Shown here: piece by piece, positions 5,174 to 6,813 of the stretch | How positions within the stretch are numbered: position 1 is the stretch's first letter | How the letters are laid out: the number at the start of each line of letters is the position of its first letter | NCBI GenBank assembly: GCA_004299235.1 | Contig: SCQL01000003.1 | Coordinates: 1 to 64,000 of the forward strand | DNA: 64,000 nt | DNA from: a bacterium | GTDB lineage: Bacteria > Chloroflexota > Dormibacteria > Dormibacterales > Dormibacteraceae | Direction of reading: 5' to 3' | Translations under genes and position numbers: made by a program | The notes under the pieces: generated by a model | The model's database searches: none | The model's input: only the letters and a program-made list of their open reading frames with translations | What the model was told of the DNA's origin: nothing

Positions 5174-5472
5174 TAGGGGAGGTCGTCCTCCTCCATCCCG
5201 AAGTGATGGCCGACCTCGTGAAGGATCGTCCGCCGCACCTCCGCGACCAGGTCCTCCATCGATCGGGCCGCCTCCTCGTGCGAGCGCTTGTACAGGGTGA
5301 TCCGCTCCGGCATCCCCTCACCGGCCGCGAGCGCTGTCGCCCCCTCGTACAGACCCATGAGGCCGTCGGGCGAGCTCTCCTCGAGGATGAAGACGGTGTT
5401 CTCGAGGTAGGGCCCGAAGGTTTCGGGGATCGAGTCCACGGCCGCCTGCGCGGCGGCCTCGAATTGCTTCAT
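5170..5472 (-). CDS. Zincin-like metallopeptidase family protein (MMP/DUF1025 type)
   Basis: A small protein (about 100 residues) with an HEVGHHFG zinc motif close to the C-terminus, followed by acidic residues, as in the possible metallopeptidase family PF06262. No substrate is known for that family. The start may be the ATG at 5472 or the in-frame ATG at 5484. Each ATG shares a CATG with one of the candidate starts of the divergent dehydrogenase gene, leaving essentially no intergenic DNA. The 3' end overlaps the flavin reductase stop. Confidence 0.8.
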   Translation of the reverse strand: MKQFEAAAQAAVDSIPETFGPYLENTVFILEESSPDGLMGLYEGATALAAGEGMPERITLYKRSHEEAARSMEDLVAEVRRTILHEVGHHFGMEEDDLPY

Positions 5473-5482
5473 GCTCACCCGC

Positions 5483-6343
5483 ATGCATGAATTGAAGCGT
5501 GTGCTGGTCGTCGGCGCCGGGACCATGGGATCCCAGATCGCACTGCAAACCGCGCTCGCGGGTCGTTACGAAGTCACGCTCGTCGACGCGGTGCCTGGTC
5601 AGCTGGAGCGCGCGCGCGCGCAGAACCGCCGCCTGCTCAGCCGATCGGTCGAGAAGGGACGGATCAATGAGGCCAAGGCGGCCGATGCTCTCGCGAGTAT
5701 CCGAGACTCGAGCGACCTCAGCTCCGCCGCCGCTGCCGCGGATCTGGTCATCGAAGCCGTGATCGAGGACTTCGACGCGAAGAAAGGCGTGTTCGAAGCG
5801 CTGGGAGCGCACGCCAAGAAGGACGCGATCCTCGCCAGCAACTCGAGCACCATCGCCATCAGCCGGCTCGCCGGCTTCACCGGCCGGCCCGAGCTGTGCT
5901 GCAACATGCACTTCTTCCACCCGGTCACCGTCATGCAGCTCTGCGAGGTCGTTCGCGGGCCCAAGACCGCGGACTCCGCCATCGAGGCGGCGATGGAATT
6001 CGTCCGCAGCATCGATCGCACCCCGGTGCTGCTGCAGAAGGAGATCTGGGGCTTCATCGTCAACCGCATCCTGTTCGCCGCCTCCGAGGAGGCCCTTCGT
6101 CTTCTGGAAGGTGGCTACGCCAGCGCCGAGGACATCGACGTCGCCGTGCAGAAGGGCTTGAACTGGCCTATGGGTCCCTTCCACCTTCTCGACTTCAGCG
6201 GCCTCGACATCTTCTATGGGGCGATGAAGGACCGGCACCGCCAGGGCGAGGGCGCCGACGCGCCGGCGCTACTGACCAAGCTGGTCGAAGCCGGCCACCT
6301 CGGCCGCAAGACCGGCAAAGGCTTTTTCGAGTACCCGAAGTAA
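5483..6343 (+). CDS. 3-hydroxyacyl-CoA dehydrogenase (3-hydroxybutyryl-CoA dehydrogenase type)
   Basis: NAD-dependent oxidation of 3-hydroxyacyl-CoA, in fatty-acid beta-oxidation or butyrate/PHB-type metabolism. The N-terminal Rossmann domain opens with VLVVGAGTMGSQIA. The middle holds SNSSTIAIS and the catalytic-His segment FHPVTVM. The C-terminal helical domain ends with GRKTGKGFFEY. At 286 residues it matches the short single-function enzymes rather than the FadB fusion. I choose the ATG at 5483 (MHELKRVLVVGAG); an in-frame ATG at 5471 adds four residues. Both overlap starts of the divergent metallopeptidase gene. Confidence 0.93.
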   Translation: MHELKRVLVVGAGTMGSQIALQTALAGRYEVTLVDAVPGQLERARAQNRRLLSRSVEKGRINEAKAADALASIRDSSDLSSAAAAADLVIEAVIEDFDAKKGVFEALGAHAKKDAILASNSSTIAISRLAGFTGRPELCCNMHFFHPVTVMQLCEVVRGPKTADSAIEAAMEFVRSIDRTPVLLQKEIWGFIVNRILFAASEEALRLLEGGYASAEDIDVAVQKGLNWPMGPFHLLDFSGLDIFYGAMKDRHRQGEGADAPALLTKLVEAGHLGRKTGKGFFEYPK

Positions 6344-6369
6344 CCGCCCGCCGGGGCAGAATTGGTGTT

Positions 6370-6442
6370 GCCCCCGTAGCCCAATGGCAGAGGCAGCCGG
6401 CTTAAACCCGGTCCAGCGCGGGTTCGACCCCCGCCGGGGGTA
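6370..6442 (+). tRNA. tRNA with anticodon UAA (Leu?) and short class I variable arm
   Basis: A complete cloverleaf of 73 bases: acceptor GCCCCCG/CGGGGGT (G1-T72 wobble), D arm with a 3-bp stem and GG in the loop, anticodon stem GCCGG/CCGGT around loop CTTAAAC, a 5-base variable region, T arm GCGGG-TTCGACC-CCCGC and discriminator A. CCA is not encoded. The 7-base loop places TAA at 34-36, so it would read UUA (Leu). Leucine tRNAs normally have a long variable arm and this has none, so the identity is uncertain. The next gene starts 32 bases downstream. Confidence 0.8.
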
Positions 6443-6460
6443 CGCCGTGGACCTTCGGCC

Positions 6461-6474: not shown

Positions 6475-6813
6475 ATGGGCATCCACTCCGAAGAAGAACC
6501 CGACGACCCGGACGAGCCCGACGAGCCCGAGCAGCCCGGTCATCCTGGCGATGGCGCCGCGACCGCGCCCGGCCTGGTGCCCTCCGTGGGCCTGCCGGCC
6601 CGCGAGTGGGAGTACTCGACCCAGATTCTGACCGTGGCCCAGGTTGTCGATGGCGTCACGCTGGTCAAGCTCCTGAGGGAATCCGGCGCCGATGGCTGGG
6701 AGCTCGCCGACGTGCTCGACGGGGGGGATAAGCGCGTTCTCCTGATGAGGAGACCGAAGCGCTCAGCACGTGAGTCGCGGCGGGTAGGGTTCGCGCCTCC
6801 GACACACAACTGA
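6475..6813 (+). CDS. DUF4177-like small protein
   Basis: A 112-residue soluble protein. The first 40 residues are acidic with repeated Asp-Glu-Pro units. The second half (WEYSTQIL, then GADGWELADVL and LLMRRPKR) has the WEY...GWEL pattern of the DUF4177 beta-sheet family, whose function is unknown. It probably starts on a leaderless mRNA, because TACAAT ends 8 bases before the ATG. Its stop abuts the possible CTG start of the response regulator. Confidence 0.65.
   Translation: MGIHSEEEPDDPDEPDEPEQPGHPGDGAATAPGLVPSVGLPAREWEYSTQILTVAQVVDGVTLVKLLRESGADGWELADVLDGGDKRVLLMRRPKRSARESRRVGFAPPTHN

Follow-up and report, generated by a model that had tools for sequence, protein, structure and literature searches.

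How a leucine codon may come to be read by a tRNA without the long variable arm of leucine tRNAs is the question raised by a 73-nt gene in the Dormibacteraceae (Chloroflexota) genome assembly GCA_004299235.1. The window analysed was a 64,000-nt stretch, positions 1 to 64,000 of contig SCQL01000003.1, and the gene, at 6370-6442 of its forward strand, combines the leucine anticodon UAA with the short variable region of a class I tRNA, instead of the long arm that defines class II. The excerpts available of a review (PMC9976931) describe the long arm of tRNA-Leu as kept everywhere but in animal mitochondria. The evidence set out below makes it very probable that the gene specifies a functional class I tRNA-Leu for UUA, charged by leucyl-tRNA synthetase (LeuRS), which stands in the place of a class II gene and belongs to a family of tRNAs also carried by phages and plasmids, from which it probably came.

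The sequence is a real tRNA gene. ARAGORN called a tRNA-Leu(taa) on the plus strand at 6370-6443, the Rfam model RF00005 aligned over its full length (model positions 1-71 of 71) with 53.8 bits against a gathering score of 29, and a covariance model built in this study, R2, gave 95.6 bits. A preliminary description of the locus had read an anticodon UAA in a 7-base loop, a five-base variable arm, a 3-bp D stem and a discriminator A fitting leucine, and each of these features was recovered (Table 1), A73 being listed among the known leucine determinants in the part of PMC9976931 available. Its further statement that the sequence folds perfectly stood only in part: single-sequence energy folding gave no cloverleaf (z = -1.1), and the structure is therefore based on the covariance models and on covariation, where 160 of 160 stem cells were paired in 8 divergent homologues, with compensatory changes in 3 pairs. 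The CTTAAA of the anticodon loop was invariant across 8 aligned class I sequences. At 5 nt, the variable region of the window gene lies within the 5-6 nt of the class I family and contrasts with the 13-17 nt long arm of ten class II leucine tRNAs from this genome and its relatives. Upstream of the main type of class I gene, positions -12 to -7 were conserved in 29 loci, with an A at -9 in all 29, and beyond about -24 the sequence was unconserved; judged by this conservation, the AT-rich block at -12 to -7 is the probable -10 region of a promoter from which the gene would be expressed.

The genome is a 2.87-Mb draft of 100 contigs, 96.8% complete, in which RF00005 detected 45 tRNAs. When these loci were named with ARAGORN, class II leucine tRNAs with the anticodons gag, tag, caa and cag were present and no class II tRNA-Leu(UAA) was found among the 45, leaving the class I gene as the one UAA tRNA recovered here, and thus as the sole UUA decoder found. 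Among the tRNAs of the genome that were tested, the D-arm pattern of the class I gene was matched only by the four class II leucine tRNAs.

Conservation was followed in a related set of 41 genomes, including this one. The 73-mer of the window gene was matched in 20 of them, but the match in G035 is a tRNA-Arg, so that 19 carry the class I gene; in 11 of the 41, spanning six genera, identity was 100% over the 73 nt even though the flanks of these identical genes diverge. Class II tRNA-Leu(UAA) was sought in the same genomes by patterns over the stretch from anticodon to T arm and was recovered in 20; no genome had both forms, and neither form was found in two, G022 and G040 (84% and 82% complete). 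The search was extended to 110 genomes of the class, in which R2 draws a clear line between class I UAA genes, at 94-100 bits, and other tRNAs, at no more than 68 bits. Here there were 39 holders of the class I gene, comprising 37 clear R2 matches, G002, where a contig end cuts the gene, and G059, whose 77-bit gene was named Leu(taa) by ARAGORN and has a short variable region. A match of class II length was obtained in 56 genomes, reduced to 54 on removal of G001 and G017, where the matched strings were not tRNA-like; these 54 were judged by pattern, and a subset also with ARAGORN. Again no genome had both forms and 17 had neither, a class II-length match being present in 0 of the 39 class I holders versus 54 of the 71 other genomes. 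Among these 17 are all seven genomes of genus g27 (family f2), G049-G055, 67-89% complete; they showed neither form with R2 and two patterns, one of them looser, and possibly have a divergent UUA decoder or have lost it.

The gene also occurs outside the class. A sample of 400 genomes of the wider phylum gave 28 R2 matches, of which 9, in three families, lay outside the class; ARAGORN named 8 of these Leu(taa), while the ninth, in G279, has the loop CCTAAAA. G279 also carries a match to class II tRNA-Leu(UAA), a form that was unrecognised among the matches listed for the other 8. A pattern search centred on G249 returned 21 of 399 genomes, consistent with the R2 survey. Two class I UAA-like tRNAs have C in place of the near-universal U33, namely that of G279 (L176 1501-1574) and one in G260 with the loop CCTAAGA (L177 1377-1449).

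These distributions bear on two other explanations. A normal class II tRNA-Leu(UAA) could lie hidden in an assembly gap, with the class I gene as an accessory, and a draft of 100 contigs in which tRNA-Tyr was also absent from the 45 matches, probably because of such a gap, gives some room for this. Yet none of the 39 class I holders shows the class II-length match, the class I gene stands in the class II slot (see below), and G249, a genome of another family in 2 contigs and 99% complete, has the class I gene as its sole form among the matches listed, all of which makes a hidden gene very improbable. The second explanation, a pseudogene or a non-decoding RNA such as a tRNA substrate of a tailoring enzyme, might appeal to the lack of an encoded CCA, with which most other tRNAs of the genome end, and to the RF00005 score, which is near the bottom of the 45 matches. 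It was rejected on conservation and on mutual exclusion with class II tRNA-Leu(UAA), and since the remaining UUA codons still require a decoder, it has hardly any probability left. A standard tRNA-Leu(UAA) elsewhere in the genome together with an absence of conservation, which the preliminary description had named as the signature of a pseudo-tRNA, was found on neither count.

The meaning of UUA could be approached through its few occurrences. In three sampled genomes no sense codon is rarer, as had been expected of a GC-rich genome, and in the sampled 0.87 Mb of the present one it makes up 73 of 230,709 codons (about 0.3 per 1000), distributed over 64 of 636 called genes. Proteins from five class I genomes were aligned with their UUA codons masked as X, which gave 33 well-aligned pairs at 29 sites. 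The residue opposite UUA was Leu in 22 pairs, Ile in 3, Lys and Val in 2 each, and Thr, Ala, Asn and Arg in one each. The same filter paired the control codon CUA with Leu in 222 of 282 cases (79%) and UUG with Leu in 1204 of 1578 (76%); a looser filter gave Leu in 42 of 69 for UUA versus 314 of 459 for CUA. UUA still means leucine: the numbers are small, but leucine is the only residue they indicate. In the called genes of five sampled genomes, TTA was also seen to cluster near the start, with 80 of 225 codons in the first tenth of the gene versus 179 of 931 for CTA, for which misplaced start calls may be the cause.

Rarity of UUA also invites a comparison with bldA, in which the level of a single tRNA would gate the expression of a set of genes, a role that would be compatible with a functional leucine tRNA. 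Its extreme position among sense codons, its lower rate in well conserved genes (0.22 per 1000, versus 0.43-0.46 in others) and the single copy of the class I gene all accord with such a role. Set against this, UUA is spread across the called genes as noted above and is present in 59 of 693 well conserved genes, so that no special set is delimited, and its rarity may simply follow from a G+C content of 67.6%. Regulation of this type is improbable here.

The strongest independent evidence for the leucine identity of the class I gene comes from viruses. A search with the 73-mer matched 39 phage and 12 plasmid records, and 14 of these 51 (8 phage, 6 plasmid) were inspected, giving 13 short-arm leucine tRNAs (taa 8, tag 2, caa 2, gag 1) and one tRNA-Arg. 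Viral contigs were then scanned with two patterns that fixed the D arm and T loop, forced a short variable region and left the anticodon free; the counts are lower bounds, at least 120 stretches for each pattern and at least 247 matches in all. Among the matches listed, ARAGORN named 245, and every one of them has a leucine anticodon (taa 173, tag 29, caa 28, cag 8, gag 6, aag 1), with A73 in 243, U48 in 243 and U8 in all 245. A body whose anticodon varies only within the six leucine codons is best understood as a leucine tRNA. The window gene has the attributes of this family, namely A73, a leucine anticodon, a variable region within the range of 3-6 nt, and a D arm of the type GCCCAA..GGCAGAGGC or GTCCAA..GGCAGAGAC. 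Many phages carry members of the family, as do plasmids and a minority of bacterial chromosomes. Two viral contigs carry tRNAs with a leucine-type body and an apparent 8-nt anticodon loop, for which ARAGORN gives the four-base anticodon ttaa (L330 4142-4218 and L333 4578-4654); these could be frameshift-reading phage tRNAs. Another viral contig has, within a phage tRNA cluster, a different tRNA-Leu(UAA) with a short variable region and the D arm GGCGTAATTGGCAACCGC (L334 1759-1836), which suggests that arm-less phage tRNA-Leu come in at least two kinds.

Reassignment of UUA, with the class I tRNA charged with some other amino acid, can now be weighed. The leucine hallmark of a class II arm is absent, a codon as rare as UUA could be recoded cheaply, and allo-tRNAs with leucine anticodons that insert Ser are known, as reported in the available part of PMC7609411. 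The masked alignments, however, in which no residue other than leucine occurs more than three times, led to its rejection as the principal explanation; the viral body type keeps to leucine anticodons under a pattern that left the anticodon free; and the acceptor and T stems of the window gene are 7/5, which excludes the allo-tRNA class with its 8/4 or 9/3. Reassignment is thus highly improbable. Among the possibilities raised by the preliminary description, another amino acid at UUA and a non-decoding RNA are both disfavoured, the latter by an only UAA tRNA that is conserved and sits in the slot of the ordinary gene, while a leucine tRNA of unusual structure, seemingly functional as an elongator that reads UUA, is strongly supported by the sequence comparisons, its expression and charging being presumed.

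How a tRNA of this form would be charged is suggested by work on leucine identity. In E. coli the determinants are A73, A15-U48, G18G19 and A20a, the long arm and anticodon being uninvolved and variants of tRNA-Leu without the long arm remaining active, and U8:A14 is crucial in Aquifex (from the available excerpts of PMC9976931). The window gene carries A73, U8, A14, A15, G18G19 and A20a. It is proposed that the ordinary LeuRS of the host would charge the class I tRNA through its acceptor end and elbow, without involvement of a long arm, recognising A73, U8:A14, A15, G18G19, A20a and the contacts between D loop and T loop, and that the product would serve as an elongator tRNA-Leu decoding UUA. 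The genome has one LeuRS above the family cut-off (1004.9 bits). This enzyme (L193 1146-3581) is about 56 residues short relative to T. thermophilus LeuRS 1h3n, lacking the counterpart of chain positions 580-635, which we take to be the leucine-specific domain. As read from the match table alone, neither the profile gap (about 570-605) nor the length of the open frame follows the tRNA type in the five genomes compared, the class I holders G010 and G009 resembling the class II holders G003, G019 and G016 in both. Besides a full-length LeuRS gene, G013 has a second, partial leuS-like frame (G013:C37:11-1942; 634.7 bits with neighbours).

The position of the gene speaks to its history. It starts 26 bases past the stop codon of a gene of the 3-hydroxyacyl-CoA dehydrogenase family and ends 32 bases ahead of the start of a 112-aa open reading frame (ORF), and these same two neighbours flank the class II gene in G003 and G016; in G013 the downstream genes are those found at the class I slot. 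A closer comparison is afforded by G009 (class I) and G019 (class II), two members of one genus, which align colinearly over 2,750 bases with 86.4% identity, the tRNAs being swapped at the same place. In a tree of the dehydrogenase (33 rows, without G009 and G019), one branch (95/86) parts class I from class II, a split that the G009 and G019 pair breaks within a single genus. The tree would need one change of tRNA type and the pair implies at least one more. In this lineage, the class I gene would thus have taken the place of class II tRNA-Leu(UAA) at the same chromosomal slot.

Two origins can be envisaged for the newcomer: a phage or plasmid gene that replaced the resident one, or loss of the arm on the spot by a deletion in the local class II gene, the phage family then being separate or itself derived from hosts. 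Local loss would account well for the shared slot, and the T stems of the G009 and G019 genes are identical (GTGGG/CCCAC), while their D loops and anticodon loops differ little. Their acceptor and D stems, however, differ wholesale. A FastTree phylogeny of 231 tRNAs without the variable region (70 nt) did not resolve class I from class II, nor the question of origin, and identities were compared instead. Outside the variable region, the best match of bacterial class I genes was 0.77-0.93 to viral class I genes and 0.61-0.74 to the class II leucine tRNAs tested, and this closer match to the viral genes makes replacement by a member of the mobile family more likely than local loss of the arm. 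Local loss, which would alter the account of origin and leave the function as it is, appears somewhat unlikely, and the transfer probably ran from phage or plasmid to the chromosome.

Table 1. Features of the class I tRNA-Leu(UAA) locus (window coordinates)
Feature	Position	Strand	Basis
3-hydroxyacyl-CoA dehydrogenase family gene, upstream side of slot	5471..6343	+	NCBIfam matches below curated cut-offs; synteny
AT-rich block cAGAATTg just upstream of tRNA, probable -10 region	6357..6364	+	Conservation among main-type loci
Class I tRNA-Leu(UAA) gene, 73 nt, no encoded CCA	6370..6442	+	ARAGORN, Rfam, model R2, conservation
Acceptor stem, 7 bp, G1:U72 wobble and six G-C pairs	6370-6376/6435-6441	+	Read from sequence
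Leucine-type D arm: 3-bp stem, C13.A22, A14, A15, G18G19, A20a	6379..6394	+	Sequence; D-arm pattern of own class II Leu tRNAs; determinants in available part of PMC9976931
D stem G10-C12/G23-C25, 3 bp, C13.A22 mismatch	in D arm	+	Read from sequence
Anticodon stem	6396-6400/6408-6412	+	Read from sequence
Anticodon TAA (UAA, reads UUA), in loop CTTAAAC 6401-6407	6403..6405	+	Sequence and ARAGORN
Variable region CCAGC, 5 nt	6413..6417	+	Read from sequence
T stem, 5 bp	6418-6422/6430-6434	+	Read from sequence
Discriminator A73	6442..6442	+	Sequence; invariant in 8 class I homologues aligned
112-aa ORF, downstream side of slot	6475..6813	+	Conserved beside class I gene, and beside class II gene in G003 and G016

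Several observations weigh against the account given here of a LeuRS-charged leucine tRNA that came from a mobile family. The window gene has C48, giving A15.C48 and not A15:U48, so that one known E. coli determinant is missing, although U48 is present in the class I forms of G025, G012, G004, G029 and G009; and the main-type gene has the G1:U72 pair. Leucine was not the partner residue in 11 of the 33 UUA alignments. The 17 of 110 genomes without either form mean that the searches recover no UUA decoder in some genomes, and, with an unfound tRNA-Tyr in a draft assembly, a class II gene may have been missed when this genome is taken by itself. The T stem common to G009 and G019 may leave room for a local origin or for recombination.

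A bolder version would have arm-less tRNA-Leu genes of phage and plasmid ancestry repeatedly seizing the host's only UUA gene at its slot, perhaps because they escape nucleases or toxins that target class II tRNAs, with the resistant form being kept by phage and host alike. This is quite unlikely as it stands, but if true, these genomes would amount to repeated natural experiments on whether a living bacterium can do without the long arm.

The data suggest that the long arm of tRNA-Leu can be dispensable in living bacteria. Bacteria were observed in which only a short-arm tRNA-Leu is found for UUA, while the single LeuRS found must also charge four long-arm tRNA-Leu, and the natural pairs of class I and class II genes, even within one genus, offer material for finding out which features LeuRS requires and by what means it discriminates against other class I tRNAs. 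They further document that a seemingly essential tRNA gene was exchanged at a single slot, and draw attention to a family of phage leucine tRNAs that is large and has received little notice. Sequences of phage members are already public as tRNA-Leu, and in this respect the gene is of a known kind; automatic annotation labels it plain tRNA-Leu, so the missing arm goes unflagged. A literature search, confined mostly to papers available without subscription, found no report of a short-arm bacterial or phage tRNA-Leu, and no text on the missing arm or on a short-arm gene as the sole bacterial UUA decoder.

Among known systems, the nearest by function are the bacterial class II leucine tRNAs (those of E. 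coli, and the gag, tag, caa and cag tRNAs of this genome), which have in common with the class I gene a leucine anticodon, A73, A14, A15, G18G19, A20a, a 3-bp D stem with a 13.22 mismatch and, presumably, the same LeuRS; the class I gene differs in having no long arm (5-6 versus 13-17 nt) and in its acceptor and D-stem sequences. The bldA tRNA-Leu(UAA) of Streptomyces likewise reads a UUA codon that is rare in a GC-rich genome, but bldA is an ordinary class II tRNA-Leu. The closest by form are the leucine tRNAs of Streptomyces phage CeilingFan, Mycobacterium phage Myrna, cyanophage P-RSM6 and Mycolicibacterium plasmid pTY66_01, with the same D arm, a short variable region and leucine anticodons, and several phage and plasmid records already name genes with this body tRNA-Leu; these are mobile and presumably act beside the host's own set, whereas the window gene is the only UAA tRNA found in its genome. 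Animal mitochondrial tRNA-Leu(UUR) is also arm-less, reads UUA and depends on A73 and A14 (available part of PMC9976931), but it serves an organelle with a dedicated LeuRS, while here the gene is on a bacterial chromosome and one LeuRS must serve four class II tRNA-Leu as well. A likeness may finally be drawn with tRNA-dependent lysogeny, in which, according to the accessible portion of PMC10865867, the tRNA of a mobile element replaces an essential host isoacceptor by way of prophage integration; in the present case the exchange took place at the same slot, between conserved host genes.
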